This document shows, piece after piece, positions 25,929 to 39,224 of a stretch of 44,909 nt of DNA. Position numbers and translations under genes: made by a program. The stretch is from Mycobacterium sp. (GTDB lineage: Bacteria; Actinomycetota; Actinomycetes; Mycobacteriales; Mycobacteriaceae), in assembly GCA_020438845.1 (NCBI GenBank), contig JAGQTV010000027.1, forward strand, positions 1 to 44,909, written 5' to 3'. The notes under the pieces are model-generated. The model did no database searches and was not told the DNA's origin. It worked only from the letters and a program-made list of their open reading frames with translations. Numbering within the stretch: position 1 is the first letter of the stretch; every line of letters begins with the position of its first letter.

Positions 25929-28406
25929 CTAGCCGGCCCAGCCGGTGATCCGGCTTGTGGACAACTCCTGCAGATATACCTCCAGGTCGGTGTAGCCGAC
26001 CGACGAGAGGTTGTGCGCGTTGGTGTTTCCGATGTTCGGGTCCAGCCCCCGCGCGATCTCCCAACTGTCGGGCATGCCGTCGTTGTCGGTATCGGTCGGC
26101 GCGGTCGGCGCGGCTCCGGAATAGGCCGGCAGCAGGGCGTCGCCGGCCGGGTTGGTGTTTCGGGGATCAGAGGCGATGGTGTCGGTGGCGACGTTGCGCA
26201 TCAATCGGATGTCCATCGGGTCCCGTGGCCAGGCGCCAGCGGTGTTGAGCAGAAGGTTCACCAGTTGATCGGTTGGGGTGTACGTGATGGAAGGGAACGG
26301 ATTGCGGCTCGAAAGTTTCTGCGCCACCTGCGAACCGGTATCGGGATCGGTGACGGACTGGAAGTCGTTACAGCAATAGAAGAGTTGGTAGTCCGACCAG
26401 GCCGGGTAGAGGTTCATCTTGTTCCCGCTGACGTAGAGATGGTTGAGCGAGGTGCGCATGATCTGGTCGTCGAACATGCCGTAGGGGAAGCTGTCGCGAA
26501 CCCGGAAATAGTTGTTGACCGCGTTGAGGTTCCAGTAGATCGGGTAGGGATTGCCGCTTCTGTCGGTGAGCGAACCGCTGTCCGGGCCCAGCGCGACGAA
26601 GAAGTTGGGATCCCAATAGAGGTTATTGGACATCTCCAGGTTCATGTAGGAACGCGCTGCCGCCAACGACTCTCGGCTGCCCTCGGGGAGTCGGCCCTCG
26701 ATCCGGTTGAACACGTTGTGGTGCAGTGACACATTGTCCAGGCCGAAGCCGTAGGCCGGGTTGGAGTAGTTCATCAACACCCCGCCGTAGAACGAATGCC
26801 CGCCGATGGTTTCGGCGATGATGGTGTTCTGGACGGTGATGTCGTGGGAGTAGGAGATCTCGATCGCCTCGTCGTTGGCGTTGCCGATCGAGACATGGTC
26901 GACGATCGCATTGCGGGTGTAGCGGATCCTCAGGCCGTCGTCGCTCAGGTCGCCGGTACCGGGTCGAATCCGAATATGTTGCAGAATCCAGTTTTCCGCG
27001 AAGTCTGCCGGCATCTGAACGGCTTGATCCTGGTAGGGGGTCTCGTCGGTGACGAAGCCCCGCACTGTGATCCCACCCGGTGAGGTTTGTCCGGCGATGG
27101 TGACGTCCCCGTTGGTCAGGTGGATCTGGGTGTTGATCACGCCGCTGACCTTGAACAGGATGTACTTGGCCCCGGGCTGATCGATTGCCCACTGCAACGA
27201 ACCCGGACCGTCGGCGTTGAGGTTGGTGACGTAGATGACGTCGCCGCCGCGCCCCCCGGTAGCGTAGGCGCCGAAACCCTCGGCGCCGGGGAACGCCACC
27301 AGTGCTGTGGCGGTGCTGCCGGCCGGGCTGACCGGAACCACGACGCCCGCCGCAGCGGTTCCGCCGCGGCCGTCGTCGATGGACACGGTGAAGTTGTCCT
27401 GTAGGTCGGCCGGAGTGGCGGTCGGGGAGGCGGCATTGGTACGGGCGGTGTCGGTTGGGGTGTAGGTGAAGGAGCCGCTGATGCCGACGACCACGGCTCC
27501 CTTGCTCGTCGTCGTCGAACCTGAGTAGGTCAACGGGTCGCCGTCGACGTCGCTGCCGATCACGCGGCCGGTCACCACTCCGGTGACCGGGTCGGGGCTG
27601 CCGACGGTGACGGTCGCCGTCGGCGCGTGGTTACCCACGCCGAATGGGGCGACGCTCACCGGCACCGTTGCCGTGCCGGTGTGGCCACTGCTGCCGAGCA
27701 GGCCGAAGGTCAGCAGATTCAGAAGGCCCGCCATGCCATGCACATGGAATCCACTGCCCGCGTCACTGACCGTGACCTGGAACGAATCGGTGGTGCCCGT
27801 CGCGGCTACCGCAGGGTCGGCGGTGTAGGTGTAGGTCCCGGCGCCGTTCACGGTCACCGTGCCGTGCTGGGGGCTCTGGGTGACGGAGTAGGTCAGCGTT
27901 GCGCTGTCTGGGTCGGAGGCATTGAGTGCGCCGGTGATTACTCCGCCGGAGGCCTGCCCGGTCTGGCTGGGGTGCAGCATCGGGGTTGCGTTGCGGAAGA
28001 CCGAGGACCGGGCTGCGCCGACTGCTGCTGCACTTGTGGTGACCGCCGTCGGACTGACTGAGGCGGCGCCGGCAGACTGCCGGCGCGCGGCCGCGGGGAG
28101 TGCCGGTAGGGCGGGTGCTTGTCCACCGAATCCGGTCACCGTGGTGGCGATCCGTGGGATTACTGCATTCGCCCGGACACTCGCGGCGACGCGCCTGGAT
28201 GCGGAATCACCGGCGGGACGCGCCGAACGGGTGGCATTGGCGGCCCGTGACGTCGTCGGCCCGGAGTTCTGGTTCTGGGAACTCGACGCGTCCGCGTCCC
28301 GGGGTGCCGCGTCGGCGTGTCCTGCAGAACCGATCGCGATGGCTGTACCAATGCCGAGCATTGCAGCCAAGGGACCGAGGCGACCGATGAAAGCTGCTGC
28401 GCTCAT
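25929..28406 (-). CDS. Secreted pectate-lyase-like protein with VCBS domains
   Basis: The 825-residue exported protein starts with an unusual signal segment (FIGRLGPLAAMLGIGTAIA, ending near GHADA). A disordered Ser/Ala/Arg linker of about 100 residues follows. Two cadherin/VCBS-like beta domains come next (about 145-350: GALNASDPDSATLTYSV, GTVTVNGAGTYTYTAD; and GRVIGSDVDGDPLTYSG, DNFTVSIDDGRGG). The last part is a right-handed beta-helix of the pectate lyase PL1 type, entered by FPGAEGFGAYATGGRGGDVIYV, with DDGLRIRYTRNAIVDHVSI and EIIAETIGGH-like rungs. Near the end is a calcium loop, DTDNDGMPDSWE. It probably cleaves or binds an acidic polysaccharide outside the cell. The start is set by TTGGGAG before the ATG; 11 extra residues are possible upstream. 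Confidence 0.85.
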   Translation of the reverse strand: MSAAAFIGRLGPLAAMLGIGTAIAIGSAGHADAAPRDADASSSQNQNSGPTTSRAANATRSARPAGDSASRRVAASVRANAVIPRIATTVTGFGGQAPALPALPAAARRQSAGAASVSPTAVTTSAAAVGAARSSVFRNATPMLHPSQTGQASGGVITGALNASDPDSATLTYSVTQSPQHGTVTVNGAGTYTYTADPAVAATGTTDSFQVTVSDAGSGFHVHGMAGLLNLLTFGLLGSSGHTGTATVPVSVAPFGVGNHAPTATVTVGSPDPVTGVVTGRVIGSDVDGDPLTYSGSTTTSKGAVVVGISGSFTYTPTDTARTNAASPTATPADLQDNFTVSIDDGRGGTAAAGVVVPVSPAGSTATALVAFPGAEGFGAYATGGRGGDVIYVTNLNADGPGSLQWAIDQPGAKYILFKVSGVINTQIHLTNGDVTIAGQTSPGGITVRGFVTDETPYQDQAVQMPADFAENWILQHIRIRPGTGDLSDDGLRIRYTRNAIVDHVSIGNANDEAIEISYSHDITVQNTIIAETIGGHSFYGGVLMNYSNPAYGFGLDNVSLHHNVFNRIEGRLPEGSRESLAAARSYMNLEMSNNLYWDPNFFVALGPDSGSLTDRSGNPYPIYWNLNAVNNYFRVRDSFPYGMFDDQIMRTSLNHLYVSGNKMNLYPAWSDYQLFYCCNDFQSVTDPDTGSQVAQKLSSRNPFPSITYTPTDQLVNLLLNTAGAWPRDPMDIRLMRNVATDTIASDPRNTNPAGDALLPAYSGAAPTAPTDTDNDGMPDSWEIARGLDPNIGNTNAHNLSSVGYTDLEVYLQELSTSRITGWAG

Positions 28407-28506
28407 GGCACTCCCAACTCTTAGCTGTGATTGCATCACAACAGTTCATTGGGTGTTGGATAGTTTGCCGAACTCAGCCTACTGGTGACAAAGGTCCTTC
28501 TCCGAT

Positions 28507-28520
28507 GGGACTTTAGTCCC
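28507..28520. promoter_or_regulatory. DosR (DevR) box core
   Basis: GGGACTTTAGTCCC is a perfect match to the 14-bp core of the mycobacterial DosR box (GGGACTWWAGTCCC). The three flanking bases on each side do not match the outer consensus. It lies 101 bases before the lyase start and 174 before the PGRS-like start, in their shared promoter region. DosR switches on genes under hypoxia, nitric oxide or carbon monoxide. Confidence 0.75.
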
Positions 28521-28603
28521 TCGGCGAGTCGGGGTTGCGGTTCGGCACTTGTCATGGCCCAAGGACCGGGCGGTGGTTAACACGATCGTCATCAATCCGA
28601 GGA

Positions 28604-28623
28604 AATGCCGGACATGCGGCATT
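28604..28623. promoter_or_regulatory. Inverted repeat upstream of the PGRS-like gene
   Basis: AATGCCG (28604-28610) and CGGCATT (28617-28623) form a perfect 7-bp inverted repeat around GACATG, about 70 bases before the start of the PGRS-like gene. It may be an operator or an mRNA leader hairpin. The cognate regulator is unknown. Confidence 0.45.
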
Positions 28624-28693
28624 CCTGACTGAATACTTAGCTTTCTATAAGCGAGAGATCGGCTCTCGCGGTGGATTTTTTAAGGATTCAGCG

Positions 28694-31600
28694 ATGGGTT
28701 CATCAGATTCCGCCCCGGCGGTCCAGCAGCATGCCTCGGCCGGTCGGATTCGTCCCATCGAGAGCCCCGTGGTGAAGCCCGTTCCTTCGGGCAACCACCG
28801 CTACGTGGGCCGGGTGGGCGCGCTGGCTGTGGCGCTGGGTGTGGGCGCGGCAATAGCGTCATTACCTGCCATCGCTGCCGCCGACACCACCGGATCGGCT
28901 GGCTCGACCGGCTCAGCCTCGGATGCCGGCCAGAGCCGCTCCGCCGCCCACGCAGGCCCGGCTCGTTCGGCGGCCCGGCAGCGGTCCTCTGGCGCAGCGC
29001 AGTCGGGTTCGGAGCGCGGGTCTGCGGCCCCGCGCTCGACCGAGCGGCGAACGGGTCGGTTGCCGATGGCGATGCCGGACGGTGATTCGGGCGCCACTGT
29101 GGCGACATCGGTGATCGCGGCCCCACCCGCCGCTGCCAAGCCACCGACCCCGCAGAAGAACCCTGCAGTGCCGGCTGCGGCGGCGCTCGAATGGGTCGCG
29201 GCGGCAGGCCAGTCGGCCAACCGGAAGGCAACTGACGCCGCAGGGCCCCAGGCTGCCGCGGTGGCCAGTGTGAAAGCGGCCAAAATCGGCGGCTTGTGGC
29301 TGTTCGGCAACGGCACTGCCGACCACCCCAACGGTGGCTTCTTTGGCGGCAGTGGCTTCAGCTGGGATGCCACGACCTGCCCGGACGGCGGCTGCGACGG
29401 CGGTAACGCCGGCCTGCTCTACGGCAACGGCGGTAACGGCTACCTCGGCGGCAATGGCGGTAACGGCGGCTGGTTCGGCAACGGGGGTGACGGCGGCAAC
29501 GGCGTCTACTACATCAACACCGGCGGCGTAGGCGGCAACGGCGGTAACGGCGGTGTCTTCTACGGCCGGGGTGGTTCCGGCGGCATCGGCGCCGAAGCCC
29601 TCTATGGCGGCACCGGCGGCACCGGCGGTAATGGCGGCCGGGGCGGTCTCTTCGGCGGCGATGGTGGCGGCGGCGGGGCCGGCGGCTGGGGCGGGTTCTA
29701 CGGTGCGATCGGTGGGGTGGGCGGTAACGGCGGAAACGCGGGCCGGTTCGCCCTCCTCGGGCGCGGCGGCGACGGCGGTATCGGCGGGACCGGCGAGGCC
29801 AACCTCCCGCTGGCTCCCTCCCAGAAAGCCCCGGACCCCAACCCCAACGGCGGCGACGGGGGTAACGGCGGAAGCGGTGGCAAGGGTGGCATGTTCACCT
29901 CCGGCGGCGCTGGAGGCGCGGGCGGCGACGGCCGCTACGGCGGCGATGGTGGTGACGCCGGGAACGCCGGGTCCCTCACCGGCAGCGGAGGTACCGGCGG
30001 TGCAGGCGGCAACGCCTACGGCGACGACACCACCGTGGGCGGCCAGGGTGGCGCGGGCGGCAACGCCGGTCTGATCTCGGGTAGCGGTGGCGCCGGCGGT
30101 GCCGGCGGCAATGGTTGCAGTACCTACCGGTCGTTGTCCTGCACCGGGGCAGGCTCGGGCGGTGACGGCGGTTCGGCTGGCGACAGCGCCCGATTCTTCG
30201 GCGCGGGCGGCGCCGGTGGCGCGGGCGGAAATGCGGCCTCGGCCCAGGCAAATGCCGGTAACGGCGCCGACGGTGCGTCGGCCAGGTCGCTGTTCGGCAC
30301 GGGTGGCAAAGGCGGCGCGGGCGGCGCCGGCGCAACGGCCGGGACTGCCGGCGACGGCGGGAACGCCGGTCGACTGGTCGGTGACGGTGGCCAGGGCGGC
30401 ACCGGCGGTGCCCTGAGTATCGCGGCAGGCGTCCTGGGTCAGCAGGCCGGGACCGGCGGAACCGGTGGGAACGGCGCCATGCTGTTCGGTTCCGGCGGCA
30501 AAGGCGGCGCCGGTGGTGCCGTCTCGGCCACGAGCAGCACCTACGAACTCTTCGCTGGGACCGGCGGCCAGGGCGGCGATGCCAAGAAGTTCGCCTTGTA
30601 TGGCAGCGGCGGTGCCGGTGGTAAAGGTGGTGCCGGTGCTATGGGCGCCGCAGGCACCTTCGGCAAGGACGGAACCCTGGGCACGAGCGCGGCCACTCCC
30701 GCGACCGACGGGGGCACCGGCGGCAACGGTGGCACCGGCGGCGCTGGCGGCACCGGCGGCAACGGCGGCGCGGGCAGTTCGATCTTCGGCTTCGGTGGCG
30801 CCGGCGGCGCCGGTGGCCGCGGTGGCGACGGTGGCGGTGGGGGCTTCGGTGGTTCTGGCGGCCTGGGCACGGGGATCCTCCTCGCCAACCAAGGCGGTAA
30901 GGGCGGCAACGGCGGCGACGGCGGCGACGGCGGTAACGGCGGTGCCGGTGGCAGTGCCGGTGCCGGAGCCATCCTGTTCGCCTTCCGTTTGTTCGGTGAC
31001 GGCGGAAACGGCGGCGACGGCGGCAACATCGGACTCGGTGGCAACGGTGGCAATGGTGGTGATTCGTCCTCTGGTAAGGACGGCGGGGCAGCGGGCAACG
31101 GCGGCGACCCCGGGACCGCCGCAGGCCTGGGAGGCGTGGGTGGAGCCGGCCGCGAGGGCGGGAAAGCCGGCGCGGACGGCGCAATCCTCACCACGCCGTC
31201 CGGCAATGGCGGCAATGGCGGCAGCGGTGGTCCCGGCGGGACCGGTAACGGCGTCGCGGGTGGTAACGGCGGGGCGCTGGGCAACGGCGGTAACGGTGGC
31301 AACGGCGGCGGAGGCGGCAACACCAAGGGTGGGGTCGGCGGCCTTGGCGGTCTGATCTCGGGTAACGGCGGTAACGGCGGTAACGGCGGCGGAACCGGAT
31401 CCGGTGGCAAAGGCGGTGACGCCCAGGTGAACGGTAACGGCGGTACCGGCGGCACCGGCGGTGGCAACGGTGGTGCCGGTGGCGCCGGCGGTCTAGGTGG
31501 CACCGCCACGGGTAACGGCGGTAACGGCGGTACCGGTGGCGCCGGCGGTGGCAATGGCGGCGATGGCGGTGCCGCGGGCGGGGGCCTGTCCGAGGGAACG

Positions 31601-34600
31601 GGCAATGGCGGTAATGGCGGTGCAGGCGGAACCGGCAAGGACGGCGGCGGCACCGGTGGTACCGGTGGGAAGGGTGGCAACGCCTCGCTGTCCGGCACCG
31701 GTGGCAACGGCGGTGCCGGTGGCGCCGGCGGTGTCGGCACGAGTGGCGATGGCGCAAAGGGCGGCGGCAATGCCACCACCGGTGGTACCGGTGGTACCGG
31801 TGGCGTCGGCGGTGTCGGTGGTTCGGGAGGCTTGACGGCCGGTAACGGCGGCAACGGTGGTGCCGGTGGCGTGGGTGGCGTCGGCGGCAGCGCGATTGGC
31901 GGCGCCGGCACTGCTGGAACCGCAGGCACCGCCAAGAACCCCGACGGTGGCACCGGCGGAAACGCAGGAACCGGCGGTACCGCGGGCGCGGGCGGCACCG
32001 GCGGTGCGGGCGGCAGCGGCGGCAAGGCGCTCGCCGGCTACCTGACCACCGACGGGGTCGGCGGCGCAGGCGGTGCCGGTGGTACGGGTGGTTCCATCGG
32101 CGGCGGTGTCGGTGGTGCCGGCGGTGCCGGCTTCACTCCTGCCAAGGCGGGCGATAACAACGGTGCTGGCGGCAATGGCGGCAACGGCGGTAACGGCGGC
32201 GACCGGGGCACCGGAACTGTGGGAGTCGGCGGCGCCGGCGGTGCGGGCGGCTCCGGTTCGTCTCAGGGCGCTGACGGTGGCAGCGGTGCGGCAGGCGGCG
32301 TAGTGGGTGGCACCGGTGGCGCCGGCGGCGACGGTGGCAGCTCTTTCGCCGGCACGGGCAAGGCCGGCGGCAACGGCGGCGCCGGCGGCGATGCGGGCTC
32401 GGTCGGAAACGGTGGTCAGGGCGGCGCAGGCGGCGACGGCGCCAGCGGAACAAGTGTTGTCGGCGGAAACGGTAGCGCCGGGACGAGCGGCGGTGCAGGG
32501 GGCGACGCCACAGACGGCGGTACCGGTGGTGACGGCGGTACCGGCGGTGCTGGTGGTGCCGGCGGCAAGGGCGGTGCCGTGTCTGGTGACGGTGGTACCG
32601 GTGGTGCCGGCGGTGCTGGTGGTGCCGGTGGAAACGCGCAAGGCGGTACCGGTGGTGCCGGCGGGAACGGCGACGCCATCAATGTCGATGGCGGTACGGG
32701 CGGCAATGGGGGAGCCGGAGGAACCGGCGGTAAGGGTGCCGCCGGCGGGGCCGGCGGCGCGGGAGGCAAAGCTCTGGCTGCCTCTGGCACCGACGGCATC
32801 GGCGGCAACGGCGGCACCGGCGGCAACGGCGGCGCGGCCAACCCCGGCAATGGAGGCAACGGCGGCACCGGCTTCTCCCCGACCAATGCGGTGGTGAACG
32901 GCGGCGCGGGCGGAAACGGCGGCAACGGCGGCAAAGGGGGCGCGCCGGGTGTCGCCGCGGGAACCGGCGGTGCGGGCGGTAAGGGTGGTACGGGATCCCA
33001 GACGGGAACGACTGGGGCCGCCGGTACCAGCGGTAACCCGCCGGGCGTCGGCGCGAACGGCGGTAACGGCGGTGCGGGCGGTAACGCCTTCGCAGGCACC
33101 GGAAAGGCCGGCGGCGCCGGTGGCAACGGCGGTGACGGCGGCTCGATTGGCAACGGTGGTGCCGGTGGTGCCGGTGGTGCCGGCGCCATCGGAGCAGACG
33201 GCAACGGGACAACTGGTGGAACCGGTGCCGACGGCACGGACGCCACCAAGGGCGGCGATGGTGGTGCAGGTGGTGCCGGTGGTGGCGGTGGCAATGGTGG
33301 CGTGACCTCCGGCAGCGGTGGTGCAGGTGGTGCCGGCGGTGTCGGCGGTGCCGGCGGTGGCGCGGCGGGCGGTAACGGCGGTGCTGGTAGCACCGGCAGC
33401 GTTGGCACTCCTACCGGTGGGAACGCTGGAAGTGGCGGCAACGGCGGTGTGGCCGGCAACGGCGGTATCGGCGGCAAGGGCGGTAACGGCGGCAAGGCGC
33501 TGGGAGGTTCCGGGTCCACCCTGTCGATCGACGGAGTCGGCGGTAACGGTGGCACCGGAGGCGCTGGCGGCAGCGCGAAGGCGGGTAATGGTGGTGCCGG
33601 CGGCACCGGCTACTCCCCGACGGCGGCGGGTCAGAACGGTGGTGGCGGCGGCAACGGCGGCAATGGCGGCGATCCCGGCGTTGCCGGAAAGGGCGCAGCG
33701 GGCGGCACCGCCGGGACCGGCTCCACCACGGGCGATGGCGGTGCGCAGGGTGCGGATGGCGCACCGGTAACGGGCACCGGTTCCGGCGGCACCGGCGGAA
33801 AGGGTGGCAACGCAGGTGTGGGCGCCACCGGTGGTGCCGGTGGCAAGGGCGGCAACGGCGGCAAGGTCGGAAGCGGCGGCGCCGGGGGCGACGGCGGCAA
33901 TGGCGGCGCCGGCGTCAGCGGCGATGGCAAGGCCGGATCCACGGGCGGTACTGGCGCGAACGGCACCAACGGCGGCGACGCCACGAAGGGCGGTCCGGGC
34001 GGAGCGGGCGGCGCCGGCGGGGCCGGTGGAACCGGCGGCAGCATTTCGGGCAACGGCGGGAGAGGCGGCACCGGCGGTACCGGCGGTGTGGGCGGTTCAG
34101 CCAGCGGCGGCACCGGTGGTGCCGGTGGCACCGGCAAGACCGGAAATGCATCCACGCCCGCAGGAACCGGCGGCAACGGTGCGACGGCCGGTAATGGCGG
34201 AACCGCAGGCGTCGGCGGAGTCGGGGGCGCAGGCGGCAAGGGTGGCCAGGTTCTCGGGCAGGGCGCTGTCGGCGCGGGTGGCGCAGGCGGCGCAGGTGGC
34301 GCGGGCGGCAATGCCAATGGCGGCACCGGCGGCAGCGGTGGCCCCGGCGGCGAGGGCGGCGGAGCCACGAAGACCGTGTTGGGTAAAGGCGCGTCGGGCG
34401 GCACCGGCGGCAACGGCGGCCAGGGCGGGAACCCCGGCACTGCAGGGGCAGGTGGGGCAGGTGGCGCGGGCGGATCTGACGGATCGGGATCCGGCTCAGG
34501 TGCCGATGGTCAAGGTGGCGCCAACGGATCCCAGTCCGGCGGAACCGGTGGTAAAGGCGGTACCGGCGGCAATGGTCAAGGCAACATCAACAACAATCCG

Positions 34601-34849
34601 ATCAACGGCGGTAATGGGGGCAATGGCGGTACCGGCGGTTCGTTTGGCGATGGTGGGGCCGGCGGAACCGGCGGAAATGCAAGGGCTGGCGGCAGCGTGT
34701 ACGGCGATTCGACCGGCACTGGCGGCAATGGCGGAAACGGTGGTAATGGAGGTCCGACCGGCACCCAGGGCGGTGCCGCCGGTGCCGGCGGCAAGGGCGG
34801 CAACAAGGGAACGGCCGGTCAGTCGGGTCAACCCGGCAAGTCCGGGTAG
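28694..34849 (+). CDS. Giant PGRS-like secreted protein without PE domain
   Basis: The 2051-residue protein has a 36-residue polar start, then the export segment YVGRVGALAVALGVGAAIA (about 37-56) ending near IAAAD, then an Ala/Ser/Arg linker, and from about residue 198 some 1850 residues of GGxGGN/GGAGG triplet repeats. The repeat entry (GGLWLFGNGTADHPNGG, then FSWDATTCPDGGCDGG with the only cysteine pair near it) resembles PE_PGRS entry sequences. There is, however, no PE domain at the N-terminus. Such Gly-rich repeats are predicted to form polyglycine II-like or beta-roll surface layers. The start at MGSSDS follows AAGGA; in-frame upstream codons have no coding look. It is divergent from the lyase gene across the DosR-box core. 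Confidence 0.85.
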   Translation: MGSSDSAPAVQQHASAGRIRPIESPVVKPVPSGNHRYVGRVGALAVALGVGAAIASLPAIAAADTTGSAGSTGSASDAGQSRSAAHAGPARSAARQRSSGAAQSGSERGSAAPRSTERRTGRLPMAMPDGDSGATVATSVIAAPPAAAKPPTPQKNPAVPAAAALEWVAAAGQSANRKATDAAGPQAAAVASVKAAKIGGLWLFGNGTADHPNGGFFGGSGFSWDATTCPDGGCDGGNAGLLYGNGGNGYLGGNGGNGGWFGNGGDGGNGVYYINTGGVGGNGGNGGVFYGRGGSGGIGAEALYGGTGGTGGNGGRGGLFGGDGGGGGAGGWGGFYGAIGGVGGNGGNAGRFALLGRGGDGGIGGTGEANLPLAPSQKAPDPNPNGGDGGNGGSGGKGGMFTSGGAGGAGGDGRYGGDGGDAGNAGSLTGSGGTGGAGGNAYGDDTTVGGQGGAGGNAGLISGSGGAGGAGGNGCSTYRSLSCTGAGSGGDGGSAGDSARFFGAGGAGGAGGNAASAQANAGNGADGASARSLFGTGGKGGAGGAGATAGTAGDGGNAGRLVGDGGQGGTGGALSIAAGVLGQQAGTGGTGGNGAMLFGSGGKGGAGGAVSATSSTYELFAGTGGQGGDAKKFALYGSGGAGGKGGAGAMGAAGTFGKDGTLGTSAATPATDGGTGGNGGTGGAGGTGGNGGAGSSIFGFGGAGGAGGRGGDGGGGGFGGSGGLGTGILLANQGGKGGNGGDGGDGGNGGAGGSAGAGAILFAFRLFGDGGNGGDGGNIGLGGNGGNGGDSSSGKDGGAAGNGGDPGTAAGLGGVGGAGREGGKAGADGAILTTPSGNGGNGGSGGPGGTGNGVAGGNGGALGNGGNGGNGGGGGNTKGGVGGLGGLISGNGGNGGNGGGTGSGGKGGDAQVNGNGGTGGTGGGNGGAGGAGGLGGTATGNGGNGGTGGAGGGNGGDGGAAGGGLSEGTGNGGNGGAGGTGKDGGGTGGTGGKGGNASLSGTGGNGGAGGAGGVGTSGDGAKGGGNATTGGTGGTGGVGGVGGSGGLTAGNGGNGGAGGVGGVGGSAIGGAGTAGTAGTAKNPDGGTGGNAGTGGTAGAGGTGGAGGSGGKALAGYLTTDGVGGAGGAGGTGGSIGGGVGGAGGAGFTPAKAGDNNGAGGNGGNGGNGGDRGTGTVGVGGAGGAGGSGSSQGADGGSGAAGGVVGGTGGAGGDGGSSFAGTGKAGGNGGAGGDAGSVGNGGQGGAGGDGASGTSVVGGNGSAGTSGGAGGDATDGGTGGDGGTGGAGGAGGKGGAVSGDGGTGGAGGAGGAGGNAQGGTGGAGGNGDAINVDGGTGGNGGAGGTGGKGAAGGAGGAGGKALAASGTDGIGGNGGTGGNGGAANPGNGGNGGTGFSPTNAVVNGGAGGNGGNGGKGGAPGVAAGTGGAGGKGGTGSQTGTTGAAGTSGNPPGVGANGGNGGAGGNAFAGTGKAGGAGGNGGDGGSIGNGGAGGAGGAGAIGADGNGTTGGTGADGTDATKGGDGGAGGAGGGGGNGGVTSGSGGAGGAGGVGGAGGGAAGGNGGAGSTGSVGTPTGGNAGSGGNGGVAGNGGIGGKGGNGGKALGGSGSTLSIDGVGGNGGTGGAGGSAKAGNGGAGGTGYSPTAAGQNGGGGGNGGNGGDPGVAGKGAAGGTAGTGSTTGDGGAQGADGAPVTGTGSGGTGGKGGNAGVGATGGAGGKGGNGGKVGSGGAGGDGGNGGAGVSGDGKAGSTGGTGANGTNGGDATKGGPGGAGGAGGAGGTGGSISGNGGRGGTGGTGGVGGSASGGTGGAGGTGKTGNASTPAGTGGNGATAGNGGTAGVGGVGGAGGKGGQVLGQGAVGAGGAGGAGGAGGNANGGTGGSGGPGGEGGGATKTVLGKGASGGTGGNGGQGGNPGTAGAGGAGGAGGSDGSGSGSGADGQGGANGSQSGGTGGKGGTGGNGQGNINNNPINGGNGGNGGTGGSFGDGGAGGTGGNARAGGSVYGDSTGTGGNGGNGGNGGPTGTQGGAAGAGGKGGNKGTAGQSGQPGKSG
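32018..34849 (+). repeat. Four ~245-residue super-repeats in the PGRS-like protein
   Basis: Beyond the GGx triplets, the C-terminal third repeats at a long period. The landmark GGKAL (GGQVL in the last unit) starts at 32018, 32762, 33488 and 34241, giving periods of 248, 242 and 251 codons. Other landmarks recur in the same order: DGVGG/DGIGG, G-F/Y-S/T-P (FTP, FSP, YSP), FAGTGKAGG and GNGGxGGAGG. The last unit is the most diverged. Confidence 0.75.
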
Positions 34850-34925
34850 CCGGTCTTCACTCAGACATAGAAATCAGCCACCCGCCGGCGGGGACACAAG
34901 CCGGTCATAGAGAGGAGTTCCAGAC

Positions 34926-36698
34926 ATGAACGGCTCAACCAACCGCGCCGGGCGGCGCAGTGCAAGGCTCAGGCGGGCCAAGACGACACTGCTGGCGGGA
35001 GCGGCCTCCGCCGCGATGACCGTAGGCCTGGCGGTGCCTGAGGCCAACGCGGCGATCCCGATCGACGTGAACATCAACCCCGTCTATACGGCGGGGGCGC
35101 TCGCTGGCCTGCTCAACTTGGTCGGGCCGGAGAAGTTGGGTACCACCGTCGTGCAGGATCTGACCGTCGATCTCCCCGAGGCCCTCGGCGGCAGGCCCCT
35201 GACCGTTACCCTCGTCGCGCAATTGGCCCTGTACCTGGACTACCTCAAGCACAGTTCCACCCAGTCCCTGTACAACACCGTCGCCGCGCTTCCGCAGCAG
35301 TACACCGGATGTGGCGGTAAAACCCTTAGCGGAGCCAGCGTGACCAGCAGCAATCCGGCAAGTACCTGCCGGTTTGTGGCCATGCTGGGGACCAGTGGTG
35401 CAACCCTGAGGCTCGCAAACGCCTATTCCGCCGAAATCGCCAGTGTGGCAGATCCGTCCACCACCCCTAATGGCTTTATCCCATTCGAGGCGGCCCCGGG
35501 TTCCACCGCGGAACTCCCGACCGAAACCAACCAATTGCTCGCGTTCCTGGAGAACCCATTGCGGCCCAATGGCGGATGGCGGTCTCGGTTCCCGGAACTG
35601 AGCAGACTGCTCGGCCAGGATCCGGACATGCCAGCCGCAGGTCTTTTCACATCCCCAGACGGCGCGGTGACCCTGAATACCACCACGGTGGATGCCACCT
35701 GGGCCTATGACCCCAAGGCAGACTTTCCTGTGGTTTTCAACATTACCGCCATCCTCAACAGCCTGGCGGCCGTGCTCCCGATCAACCTGGCCGGCGGGCT
35801 AAGCACGCAAGGGCTGGGGGGGATCGTGCTCGCGGACCAAACCGGGGCGCCCGCCGACCCCGCAATTCTTATCCAGAACCTGGCCGGGCTGTTTCAGATC
35901 GGGGTATCCGGGCTTCCGCTCCCCAACGTCTTCCCTTACAACCAACTTGACCCTTTCTACCTCCCCATGGCTCCCGGGGAGGCCCTCTATGCCACGATCG
36001 TTCCCAATCAACTTCCGCTGTTGAGCTATGTGCGTCTCCCGGCGATGGCGGGCAACGCACTGTTGGGGGCGCTCGGGTCAGATTTCCGGTTAGGGATGCC
36101 GGTGATCAACGCTCTGGAACCGGCACTGAAGATTCTGGCCAACATCGGCTATGACGACGTCATCGCCCCCGACGAACTCGACGCAGTCGATCCGAACTCG
36201 ACCGATGGCAAGACCTACGCCGAGGAGGGCTACCAGGCCTATGACCGGACGTTCCTCAAGGCCGGGGAATCCACAGCGTTCGGATCGGTCAAGCCCTTGA
36301 CCAAGGAAGAGCGCCGTCAGGTGCCCGGTGACGTGTTGGCGGCGCTGCGGGATGGATTCAGGGAGATGTTCAGCCAACCGCTATGGGGCTTTGTCGTCCC
36401 GGCGTCCTCGACCGCGTCCTCGACGGCCTCGGTCGCTGCCTCGCGGGTCGCCGCGCCGGCGGCTGCACAGCATGAGCCATCGGTGCCCACCTCCACCGAC
36501 GGGGCCGACTCCGTCCCTGCGATCGCCGTGGCGGCACGCGGCAGTCACGGCGCGGTGCGAGCAGAGCGGGGCAACCCTGGCGGTCGGCCCGGGGAGCCGG
36601 GTGGACGCAAGCAGTCAGCGTCGTCAGCGGCTCCGGGGTCTGCCAGTAAAGCCGCGAAGCCTGGGGCTGCTGCGGCTCGGCATCGCGGCGGTAATTGA
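34926..36698 (+). CDS. Secreted PE-PPE-domain-like protein
   Basis: The 590-residue protein starts with an arginine-rich signal peptide (RRSARLRRAKTTLLAGAAS, cleavage after ANA at about 42) that could use the Tat route. The mature protein of about 440 residues ends its globular part with LRLGMPVINALEPALKILANIGYDD-like sequence (described in parts: RLPAMAGNALL, then LEPALKILANIGYDDV). This recalls the end of PE-PPE hydrolase domains, where DLIQPDLRVLVNLGYG is usual. No GxSxG nucleophile motif is evident, so a catalytic role is doubtful. The last 100 residues are a disordered Ala/Ser/Pro/Arg tail. Start: GAGAGGAG before the ATG. It follows the PGRS-like gene by 76 bases and may be co-expressed. 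Confidence 0.6.
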   Translation: MNGSTNRAGRRSARLRRAKTTLLAGAASAAMTVGLAVPEANAAIPIDVNINPVYTAGALAGLLNLVGPEKLGTTVVQDLTVDLPEALGGRPLTVTLVAQLALYLDYLKHSSTQSLYNTVAALPQQYTGCGGKTLSGASVTSSNPASTCRFVAMLGTSGATLRLANAYSAEIASVADPSTTPNGFIPFEAAPGSTAELPTETNQLLAFLENPLRPNGGWRSRFPELSRLLGQDPDMPAAGLFTSPDGAVTLNTTTVDATWAYDPKADFPVVFNITAILNSLAAVLPINLAGGLSTQGLGGIVLADQTGAPADPAILIQNLAGLFQIGVSGLPLPNVFPYNQLDPFYLPMAPGEALYATIVPNQLPLLSYVRLPAMAGNALLGALGSDFRLGMPVINALEPALKILANIGYDDVIAPDELDAVDPNSTDGKTYAEEGYQAYDRTFLKAGESTAFGSVKPLTKEERRQVPGDVLAALRDGFREMFSQPLWGFVVPASSTASSTASVAASRVAAPAAAQHEPSVPTSTDGADSVPAIAVAARGSHGAVRAERGNPGGRPGEPGGRKQSASSAAPGSASKAAKPGAAAARHRGGN

Positions 36699-36759
36699 CG
36701 GGCTGGGCCGCACTGAAGACGCCGTCCCGGTGGCTCGATTGGTCTACCGGTTCGGGGCG

Positions 36760-36780
36760 CATTTTCTCAAACCGAAAATG
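36760..36780. promoter_or_regulatory. AT-rich inverted repeat after the PE-PPE-like gene
   Basis: CATTTTC (36760-36766) and GAAAATG (36774-36780) form a perfect 7-bp inverted repeat with a seven-base loop, 60 bases past the preceding stop and 160 before the next start. It may be a weak terminator or an operator. The rest of the 240-base gap shows no gene. Confidence 0.4.
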
Positions 36781-36938
36781 TGAAAACGCTGTGTCCGTGC
36801 TGGGAGAAGTACTAAATTCAGGACCGACGAGAAGCGGGGTGTCGGGAACGTCCGGTTGCACGTCGCCGCGGTCTTGACTTAACAGAACCATTTAGCCAAC
36901 CGCCAGCCAGTCGGTTGCCACCACGAAGGAGAGCAATC

Positions 36939-39224
36939 ATGGGATACGCCAATTACATTGGGCGGGTCGGGGGGCTGGCGGTAGCCCTCGGCGTCGGCAT
37001 GGCGGCGGGTGCCGCTCCAGCTGTGGCCTGGGCCGACCCCACGGACTCCGGCAGCGCGAGTGCGTCGGCTGGAGACTCCTCGTCGGCGTCCTCCTCGAGG
37101 GTGGCGACCAGGGCAGCGCGCACGGCGCATGCCGCCTCCTCGCCCGGGTTTAGGGGGGCCGGTCGCGCGGCTAGGGCTTCGGCACCCAGTGACACCGGAC
37201 AATCGCGCCGCGACTCGGCGCTGAGCAAGTTGCCGAAATCCGTGACCGATCGCGTCCGGAACCACGGCAATTCGGCGCCCACCACCAGCCCGGCCATCGA
37301 CGCCGTTGACAGCACACCGGCTCCCGAGAACAGCGCGGCGCCTGCGGTTGTTTCGCTGGCCGCTCCCGCTGCGGCAGCGCCGGCGGTGGCCCGCACGGCG
37401 GCGGTGGGCGACGTTGCCCCGGCGGCCGCTGCAGTTGTTGCGACGCCGAAGGCGGTAGCCAGCGCGGTGAAGCCCGTGCAGCTGATTCGGACCGTGCTGA
37501 GGTCGTTACTCGGCTCGGGCCAACTGGGTTCGGTCCAGTTGGACACCTTGTTGGCCGCTCTGGACGCCATTCGTCGCGCGTTCGGGAGATTCAACCAGTC
37601 GGTGCCGGCCGCAACGGTCACCAGTTCTGCCACCGTGAGCCCGAACCTGCTGTTCAACGGCGATGCTGAGATCGGTGACCCGTCGGAGTCGGGATTCACT
37701 ACCGCGACCCTTCCCGGCTGGACGATAGTGAGCGGCGCGCCAACGGTGATCGCCTACGGCACGCAGCGCACCATCTGGTCGGTCGGCCAGCCGTTCGCCA
37801 TGCCGGACCTGCCGAACTTCCTGAGCTTCCCGCAGAAGTCCGTTGGCCCGAGCATCAGTGGGACGCCCACCGGTGGCAACAATTTCTTCGGCGGCGGCCC
37901 GGTTGTCGATGCCGTCATCAGTCAGACCGTCGATCTGTCCGCAGCCAGTGCAGCAATTGACACCGGCACCGTCGGCTACAACCTCAGCGCCTGGCTAGGC
38001 GGGTACACCCTCGATCCGTCGGCCGCATCGGTCAAGGTCACTTTCCTCGACGCCGGCGGTAATTCCCTGGGCAGCGACAAGCTCAGGAAGGTGGGTCTGC
38101 TCGATCGCTTTTTCGCGACCAAGTTCAAGGAGCGGACCGCCACAGGCTTGTTGCCGGTGGATACTCGGTCGGCCGTGGTTGAGGTCACCTTCAACGATAA
38201 GAACCCGATCATCTACGGGTTGAACGCCCGATACAACGACGCCTTCGCCGACAACATCTCGTTCACCGTTGACGCCGCACTGTCGGCTCCGATGGTGGAT
38301 CCGCCGGTATCGACGGTCGGAGCTCTCGACCACGTCTTCATGGTCTACATGGAGAACAAGGGCTACAGCGACATCGTCGGCAGCAAGAATGCGCCATACC
38401 TGAACAGCCTGATCGAGCAGTACGGGTTCGCCGACAACTACTTCGCGCTGACCCATGGCAGCCTGCCGAACTACTACCCGATCGTCGCCGGCTCGAACTA
38501 TGGGATCACCTACAACTGCGCCTCGCCGTGCATCTACACGACGAATCTTCTCACCACCAACCTCGATAACATGTACGGCGCCAACGGGTGGCGGGGCTAT
38601 GCGCAGAGCCTGGAGCCGGGAGCTAATCCCTTGGTCGACAGCGGTGACTACAGCAATGACCAGCTTCCGTTCCCGGCGTTCAAGGCGATTGCCGGTGACC
38701 TCGCCTACGCCAAGGCGCATATCCTCCCCCTGGAGCAGATGGCGATCGACCTGAGTAACCCCGCCGACGCGCCTAAATTCGCGTGGTGGGCGGCGAACGA
38801 GGATTTCAACGGTGAGGGACCTGTGTCGGGTATCTCGGGCGTCCTGCGCTTTGCGCTGAACCAGTTGGACCCACGGCACCAGTACAACGTCGCGGCTCTC
38901 GACCAGTTCCTGTCCGAAACTGTTCCGGTGATCCTGAACTCCGCGACCTGGAATGACGTGACCGTCAAATCGGCTGTCGTCGTCACCTTCGATGAGGACA
39001 ACAACAACCTCTACCTGGGCTTCGGCAACGAGGGTAACCACATCGTGACGGTCGTCATCCCCTCCCCAGGGGCCGTCGCTGCCGGAATGAAGAGTGGTTC
39101 GTTCACCACCTCCCAGTACTACGATCACTACGGTCTGCTGCGGACCATCGAAGAGGCGCTCGGACTGCCGTACCTGACCGCCAACGACGAGTGGGCAGTC
39201 CCACTGAACGACTTCTGGACCTAA
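36939..39224 (+). CDS. Secreted phosphoesterase (phospholipase C/AcpA-like)
   Basis: The 761-residue exported protein starts with the same type of export segment as its neighbours: MGYANYIGRVGGLAVALGVGMAAG, then WADP. A Ser/Ala/Arg linker of about 200 residues follows. A beta-sandwich domain resembling DUF642-type carbohydrate-binding modules comes next (LLFNGDAEIGDP, GGGPVVDAVISQTVDLS, NARYNDAFADNISF). The catalytic domain is of the phosphoesterase family that includes phospholipase C and AcpA: HVFMVYMENKGYSDIVG, NAPYLNSLI, THGSLPNYYPIVAGSN, VVVTFDEDNNN, GNHIVTVVIPSPGAV and YDHYGLLRTIEEALGLPYL. The metal and nucleophile region (MENKGY, HGSLPNY) is intact. The ATG follows AAGGAGAG. A strong terminator follows. 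Confidence 0.88.
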   Translation: MGYANYIGRVGGLAVALGVGMAAGAAPAVAWADPTDSGSASASAGDSSSASSSRVATRAARTAHAASSPGFRGAGRAARASAPSDTGQSRRDSALSKLPKSVTDRVRNHGNSAPTTSPAIDAVDSTPAPENSAAPAVVSLAAPAAAAPAVARTAAVGDVAPAAAAVVATPKAVASAVKPVQLIRTVLRSLLGSGQLGSVQLDTLLAALDAIRRAFGRFNQSVPAATVTSSATVSPNLLFNGDAEIGDPSESGFTTATLPGWTIVSGAPTVIAYGTQRTIWSVGQPFAMPDLPNFLSFPQKSVGPSISGTPTGGNNFFGGGPVVDAVISQTVDLSAASAAIDTGTVGYNLSAWLGGYTLDPSAASVKVTFLDAGGNSLGSDKLRKVGLLDRFFATKFKERTATGLLPVDTRSAVVEVTFNDKNPIIYGLNARYNDAFADNISFTVDAALSAPMVDPPVSTVGALDHVFMVYMENKGYSDIVGSKNAPYLNSLIEQYGFADNYFALTHGSLPNYYPIVAGSNYGITYNCASPCIYTTNLLTTNLDNMYGANGWRGYAQSLEPGANPLVDSGDYSNDQLPFPAFKAIAGDLAYAKAHILPLEQMAIDLSNPADAPKFAWWAANEDFNGEGPVSGISGVLRFALNQLDPRHQYNVAALDQFLSETVPVILNSATWNDVTVKSAVVVTFDEDNNNLYLGFGNEGNHIVTVVIPSPGAVAAGMKSGSFTTSQYYDHYGLLRTIEEALGLPYLTANDEWAVPLNDFWT

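Follow-up and report, generated by a model that had tools for sequence, protein, structure and literature searches.

A conserved GRVG signal-peptide motif heads a leader and linker module on diverse predicted secreted proteins of Mycobacterium

The window analysed here, a 44,909-nucleotide stretch of Mycobacterium sp. DNA (contig JAGQTV010000027.1 of assembly GCA_020438845.1), encodes three predicted secreted proteins, with lyase, PGRS-like and phosphoesterase cargo, that share one N-terminal arrangement: the residues G-R-[VL]-G, a hydrophobic core of Ala, Leu, Val and Gly, an A-x-A site and then a long linker. Judged by its layout, a cleavable signal peptide of the Sec type begins with this GRVG segment. 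Sequence comparisons establish the conservation, architecture, partly shared cargo and distribution of the module; a spacer role for the linker, a surface location, an extra reader of the leader and functional replacement of PE/PPE proteins are predictions from them. The reading that we favour, at a probability of about 0.55, is that a conserved Sec leader heads a reusable display cassette that is recognised by an additional reader and used where PE/PPE leaders are few.

A leader and linker module in the window and its genome

The lyase protein lies on the reverse strand at 25929..28406, if translation starts at the ATG at 28406 that is closest to the module; the open reading frame (ORF) reaches a GTG at 28439. 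Its signal peptide (28314..28406, reverse strand) holds a GRLG form of the motif at 28341-28385 within FIGRLGPLAAMLGIGTA, with cleavage, by eye, probably after GHA. It is followed by a low-complexity linker of ~105 residues (27999..28313, reverse strand), and the protein matches Pfam Big_9 (E 5e-17) and, under the respective cut-offs, Pfam Pectate_lyase_4 (E 3e-4) and the NCBIfam model PelZ (E 2e-13). The PGRS-like protein, on the forward strand at 28694..34849 with possible starts at ATG 28694 or GTG 28769/28772, carries the motif and hydrophobic core at 28808..28852 (YVGRVGALAVALGVGAA), a low-complexity linker of ~134 residues (28883..29284) and glycine-rich cargo. Because it has no Pfam match at E<=1 and its genome has no PGRS match at E<=1e-6, the term PGRS describes only its composition. 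The phosphoesterase (PF04185, E 7e-11), also on the forward strand at 36939..39224, has a signal peptide at 36939..37034 with the GRVG motif at 36960-37004 (YIGRVGGLAVALGVGMA) and probable cleavage after AWA, and a low-complexity linker of ~203 residues (37035..37643). The initial annotation had placed a common segment at the head of these three proteins, each ahead of a linker of 100-200 residues, and both points are borne out; the segments read as N-terminal signal peptides, and the exact linker lengths depend on the boundaries set in this analysis.

The 33-residue phosphoesterase leader, used as a query at E<=10, matched 37 places in the window's own genome including itself (36 others), all of which were read. 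The PGRS-like copy was matched at E 4.3e-6 and the lyase copy at E 0.97, which makes the lyase a divergent member whose place rests on a profile built with the lyase included. The GRVG module was present at 33/37 places; at the other four, a linker of this kind follows another signal peptide. Throughout the stretches read the motif was tied to one architecture. A short DNA pattern gave nine matches, six of them modules and three not N-terminal with a linker. Across the 33 own-genome modules the arginine, A+6 and G+10 were invariant (33/33), G0 was kept in 32/33, and G+3 and L+5 in 31/33, a constancy that stems partly from selection of the set by likeness to one member. The arginine, A+6 and G+10 were likewise kept in 48/48 non-redundant modules, collected by profile and partly by motif, so that here too constancy is partly a product of selection. 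The codons of the constant residues are mixed: the arginine is encoded by CGG (19), CGC (5), CGA (5), CGT (2), AGA (1) and AGG (1), and all four codons are used for the constant glycines and alanine. With six arginine codons in use, the residue is kept as protein rather than through recent copying of DNA, and selection on the protein maintains the constant residues.

The linker accompanies the leader far more often than it accompanies other signal peptides. In all 37 own-genome proteins the first 150 residues after the leader are 61-79% Ala, Ser, Arg, Thr, Gly or Pro, and a linker was found in 24/24 GRVG genes as compared with 8/58 other genes with a signal peptide (Fisher p 3e-14). This comparison covered putative genes called in 452,792 bases of the genome, in stretches mostly chosen for holding GRVG-type genes, and its crude signal-peptide rule left out four GRVG genes that failed it. 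The earlier suggestion of one leader and linker joined to different cargo is upheld by these figures, with many cargo families involved; the specific envelope location or secretion route that it also raised would be a further prediction.

The consensus of the leader class is [VI]-G-R-[VIL]-G-x-L-A-x-x-L-G-x-G. Its layout is that of Sec and signal peptidase I substrates, with an arginine before the core in 33/33 modules and each alanine of A-x-A in >=90% of modules, features judged by eye and by a crude rule. Sec export and cleavage by signal peptidase I are predicted for these proteins, and since the leader is of this type a new translocase would be unneeded. A Tat signal peptide was rejected, as 32/33 modules lack adjacent arginines in the motif or the six residues before it, the sole exception being C85:79942 (ARRVGR). 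In Gram-positive bacteria, YSIRK-G/S signal peptides have a conserved motif before the core, small core residues, and long surface proteins with varied cargo behind them, and a partner or site at the translocon has been proposed as their reader. The GRVG leader is similar in its motif ahead of the core and its varied cargo; however, its residues differ, and five GRVG N-termini compared with Pfam and NCBIfam at E<=10 matched neither the YSIRK-G/S profile (PF04650) nor any other fitting model, so that membership of that class was discarded. In addition, LPXTG was not noticed in the C-termini of the own-genome loci read. The leader is also not a PE or PPE domain, there being no PF00934 or PF00823 match by Pfam in the 37 own-genome proteins. 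The likeness to PE/PPE proteins of the ESX-5 system lies in the order of leader and linker and in partly the same kinds of cargo (PE-PPE and PGRS, with PecA-like cargo behind a sister leader). GRVG heads a signal peptide of ~30 residues, whereas PE/PPE leaders are domains of 100-180 residues without a classical signal peptide (PMC6819658). Searches of the literature by motif and by signal peptide in mycobacteria yielded no description of a GRVG leader class, nor is such a leader treated in the accessible parts of papers on PGRS proteins that lack a PE domain.

Linker length and low complexity are conserved while sequence and charge vary. The Ala/Ser/Arg composition given in the initial annotation describes linkers of the window's genome, but it fails in other species, where linkers can be anything from basic to strongly acidic: in named species, residues 1-100 of the linker include 1-61 acidic and 0-20 basic ones. 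Two linkers of Mycobacterium neglectum (L200 and L205) have 50 and 61 Asp/Glu per 100 residues, whereas those of the window are Arg-rich. Near the linker end many members carry a junction motif, P-x-[QDEG]-[SP]-P-x-x-W-x-[LM]-[LM]-A-[FWA]-x-R-R-E, or P..W.LLA..RRE in short form. The strict pattern occurs in 40/79 named GRVG proteins (mean 0.05 in 20 shuffles) and 4/37 own-genome proteins, and a profile, built from 40 of the same 79 named proteins and so partly circular, finds it in 57/79 and 9/37. Among 682 own-genome ORFs of at least 200 residues the profile had 12 matches, 10 of them GRVG ORFs, and it had none in the 13 PE-PPE loci with a PE or PPE leader or in the 251 ORFs of rpoB loci. The motif spans eight cargo clusters of the named set and is commonest (19/22) in one taken for DUF4185. 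That it is a property of all members was ruled out by the 57/79 and 9/37 counts and by its absence from PGRS loci. PE_PGRS proteins have a junction motif of their own, GRPLI, after the PE domain (PMC7550000). In the window, LLAALDAIRRAF (37548-37583, in the phosphoesterase linker) is possibly a divergent junction motif; the profile did not match it, and the AlphaFold model has a low-confidence helix there. AlphaFold models, with a mean predicted local distance difference test score (pLDDT) of 46 for a DUF4185-type member (13 sequences) and 35 for the window phosphoesterase alone, are too poor to give more than a hint of a coil linker and two low-confidence helices ahead of the cargo.

Conservation, cargo and distribution in the genus

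In seven GRVG-S15 orthologues the mean pairwise identity is 86% for the signal peptide, 46-50% for the linker and 46-80% for cargo blocks. These loci were chosen for a GRVG match, and the figures therefore do not show how often GRVG is lost among orthologues. Signal peptides generally drift faster. A cargo-first check gave a comparable result for a second leader: eight of ten PF20729 (PecA-like) proteins from GRVG-rich genomes carry a WLGAG signal peptide, and in these eight the identity is 83% for the signal peptide, 31-41% over linker residues 1-100 and 55-73% beyond them. The other two loci have an ordinary leader (L319) or no leader in the cargo frame (L307). The unusual conservation claimed for the signal peptide is supported, exceeding that of the linker and of most cargo in both the GRVG-S15 and the WLGAG/PF20729 sets.

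With the consensus x-W-L-G-[ATV]-G ... A-x-A-[DE], the WLGAG leaders constitute a second class of conserved signal peptides, carried by PGRS proteins (L338, L349, L353, L357-L359, L362 and L364) and PecA-like proteins (L309, L310, L312, L314, L316, L318, L320 and L321). Its profile (A4), which also catches some GRVG cores, matches all 30 GRVG-rich genomes and 1/23 PE-rich ones. A PecA-like PF20729 gene lies directly upstream of GRVG-S15 in the gene pair found at L327-L333 (genomes G009, G043, G018, G024, G053, G004 and G032), the loci of the seven orthologues compared above, with a shorter GRVG frame of 651 residues at L332.

Cargo is varied. By Pfam, the 37 own-genome proteins include PE-PPE hydrolases (three), S15 (two), Big_9 (six, one with GH114 and one being the window lyase), GH16, haem peroxidase, DUF4185, DUF1214 (two, one under its cut-off), lactonase-type propellers (two), Calx-beta, TIG, PGRS (C71, barely above cut-off) and the phosphoesterase, with 12/37 lacking a match. 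The four without GRVG are a PecA-like protein, one with pentapeptide repeats, one with a marginal DUF4214 and one with no match. BLAST sorts the 33 GRVG proteins, apart from a single short protein, into ~19 cargo clusters. A family of five cargo regions (G000 C26, C29, C86, C109 and C113; L031, L056, L052, L040 and L038), in which pairs are 35-61% identical, has no Pfam match at E<=0.001 and ends in a stretch rich in aromatic residues that contains P-F or P-W; its C86 member lacks GRVG. Cargo in 78 named members, among the matches listed, comprises S15 (24), DUF4185 (22), Big_9 (15), PE-PPE (3), PGRS (3) and others. The initial annotation called the cargo unrelated, which is too simple, since part of it is of PE/PPE type.

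The same cargo is found behind exchanged leaders. PF08237 (PE-PPE), present in 60/60 Mycobacterium genomes, is led at 30 loci by PE (10), PPE (3), GRVG (2, L231 and L236) or none of these (15), as scored by reading N-termini and with PE and PPE leader models made from seven and three of the same 30 loci. PF20729 has a PE leader at 16/20 loci from genomes with >=5 PE domains and at 0/10 from GRVG-rich genomes. In 16 GRVG-rich genomes PGRS had 32 matches in 12 genomes; of the 30 loci read, 7 have GRVG, none PE, none PPE and at least 8 a WLG-G leader, the others having different N-termini. PF08237 can accordingly stand behind PE, PPE or GRVG, PF20729 behind PE or WLGAG, and PGRS behind GRVG or WLGAG, with PE ahead of PGRS documented in PMC7550000. 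There is a precedent in LipY, whose catalytic domain follows PE in M. tuberculosis, PPE in M. marinum and a canonical signal peptide in M. gilvum, described as 'interchangeable modules' (PMC3586085, citing Daleke 2011). LipY resembles the GRVG cargo in having one cargo behind PE, PPE or a signal peptide across species; it differs in being a single lipase whose signal peptide, in the text consulted, is not assigned to any conserved class. PMC3037379 describes a protein that combines a PE-PPE domain with a predicted signal peptide. PecA, which according to PMC6819658 trims the leaders and linkers of PE_PGRS and LipY at the surface of M. marinum, has its PF20729 domain after a leader and linker as well, but the leader at 8/10 loci from GRVG-rich genomes is WLGAG and not PE.

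A profile built from the 33 own-genome modules (A2) matched 44/60 genomes of Mycobacterium in the broad sense at E<=0.01, with 1-53 places each and E down to 1e-18. In wider samples, with 151 genomes from the family and 150 from the order, only Mycobacterium gave matches better than 1e-8, and 35 genomes outside the genus had 1-4 weaker matches each (best 4.5e-8). Reading one locus in each of 28 of these 35 genomes revealed no signal peptide with the complete motif; L129 has the motif letters inside a charged segment that does not form a signal peptide, and L097 and L098 are recognisable relatives. L098, from another genus of the same family, combines a divergent leader KYVSRVRGLALAAG with the junction PPTLWTLLWFARRQ, the only junction motif found outside the genus, in the 579 residues read of a 1311-residue ORF; the cassette may for this reason predate the genus. 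Named holders, among the matches listed, are mostly Mycolicibacterium or Mycobacterium (for example vaccae, austroafricanum, iranicum, rhodesiae and sphagni). They come from a set of at least 580 stretches, 328 confirmed and 80 kept, that is biased to GRVG[AG]LAVA; L190 was left out when its pattern could not be recovered. A few listed records titled Bifidobacterium, Acidobacteria or Actinomycetes are metagenome bins, which we take as mislabelled or unnamed.

Within the genus, GRVG and PE avoid each other. At least five GRVG matches occur in 30/60 genomes, every one with fewer than five PE domains, and at least five PE domains in 23/60, every one with at most three GRVG matches; the highest PE count, 71, is a lower bound (at least 71). 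The split gave a Fisher p of 1.7e-10 and a Spearman coefficient of -0.66, neither corrected for kinship. When the traits were mapped on an rpoB tree that held 55 of the 60 genomes, PE>=5 showed a single change and GRVG>=5 showed seven. Repeated independent replacement of one by the other was judged unsupported, given the single PE change and a null independent-pairs test. EccB copies, counted by hand, have a median of 3 in GRVG-rich and 5 in PE-rich genomes, which fits a larger number of ESX loci in PE-rich genomes but is not specific to ESX-5.

A proposed display cassette or an inherited leader

The best reading of these observations may be that the GRVG cassette is the Sec counterpart of PE/PPE leaders. 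The cassette would run from signal peptide to a long disordered spacer whose composition is free, in many cases with P..W.LLA..RRE, to cargo. SecYEG would transport the chain, signal peptidase I would cleave at A-x-A, and the spacer would cross or line the thick wall, so that the cargo, whether enzyme, Ig-like or glycine-rich, would end up in the outer envelope. The signal would be retained exactly since something beyond generic Sec reads GRVG, which may be a translocon partner or site as proposed for YSIRK-G/S, and in species poor in PE/PPE the cassette would perform the role that PE/PPE leaders have in ESX-5 species. Such a route matters as routes to the mycobacterial outer surface that do without a PE/PPE leader are poorly understood. 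The up to 53 matches per genome would provide a list of probable envelope proteins, the four-residue motif a simple handle on sorting, and the question of PE/PPE takeover in one lineage would no longer concern LipY only but several families of cargo.

Several results weigh against this reading. These kinds of cargo can do without GRVG: only 2/11 PE-PPE loci from GRVG-rich genomes, 3/8 PE-PPE matches in the window's genome and 7/30 PGRS loci are GRVG-led. The junction motif has no match in 28/37 own-genome members and occurs in 0/181 ORFs of PGRS loci, GRVG-led ones included. Seven of the 60 genomes, two of them only 70-84% complete, have few of both GRVG and PE, so that GRVG loss does not require PE gain. 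The independent-pairs test on the rpoB tree was not significant, and since PE changes once the mutual exclusion rests on one transition, which alone is no proof of replacement. Finally, conserved residues 0-14 show no helix-face clustering (permutation p 0.92), and the idea that they lie on one face was rejected.

The last point also suits the chief competitor, an ordinary Sec leader inherited with a successful cassette, spread by duplication and recombination at 5' ends, and without any sorting role. We regard this explanation as possible but less likely than the favoured one. The signal-peptide layout is canonical, the leader stands on many cargoes, the same kinds of cargo also occur behind other signal peptides, no reader is known, and there are tandem paralogues (C90, 76% identical beyond residue 150). 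Against it, the constant residues are fixed while their codons are spread over all synonyms, the signal peptides are better kept than the linker and most cargo where faster drift is usual, and the pairing of GRVG with a linker exceeds that in other secreted proteins. The motif could be either a signal that sorts by location or a well-kept inherited leader.

A bolder form of the cassette idea strikes us as unlikely, if worth stating: GRVG and WLGAG would mark a dedicated Sec-coupled surface route with a reader at the translocon, older than ESX-5 and PE/PPE, from which cargo moved to PE/PPE leaders, with loss of GRVG, when ESX-5 arose in slow growers. ESX-5 is confined to slow growers according to PMC4418733.

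Quite improbable is a third explanation, in which a surface or membrane protease of the PecA kind recognises the leader or the linker, and conservation reflects processing rather than targeting. The trimming activity of M. marinum PecA favours it, as does the PecA-like gene directly upstream of GRVG-S15 in 7/11 loci, which were chosen partly for that. On the other side, A-x-A follows the core in >=90% of modules, PF20729 is absent (E<=1e-10) from 34/60 genomes, including 20/30 that are GRVG-rich, and neither of the two PF20729 genes examined in the window's genome has a GRVG gene beside it. Chance or compositional resemblance among signal peptides rich in Ala, Gly, Leu and Val in a GC-rich genome can be dismissed, for although such cores yield weak matches in other genera and L129 shows the letters in a non-signal segment, the constant arginine and fixed glycine positions, the E values down to 1e-18, the lack of a full motif in any signal peptide of the 28 out-of-genus loci, the scarcity of matches (<=3 each) in 23 PE-rich congeners, and the genome matches, genus profile and tie to the linker all oppose it.

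A secreted protein between two GRVG genes

Between the PGRS-like and phosphoesterase genes, on the forward strand at 34926-36698, the window encodes a further predicted secreted protein that has an ordinary signal peptide and lacks the motif. Neither Pfam nor NCBIfam gave a match to this protein at E<=1, and its C-terminal tail is rich in Ala, Ser, Arg and Gly, resembling the GRVG linkers.

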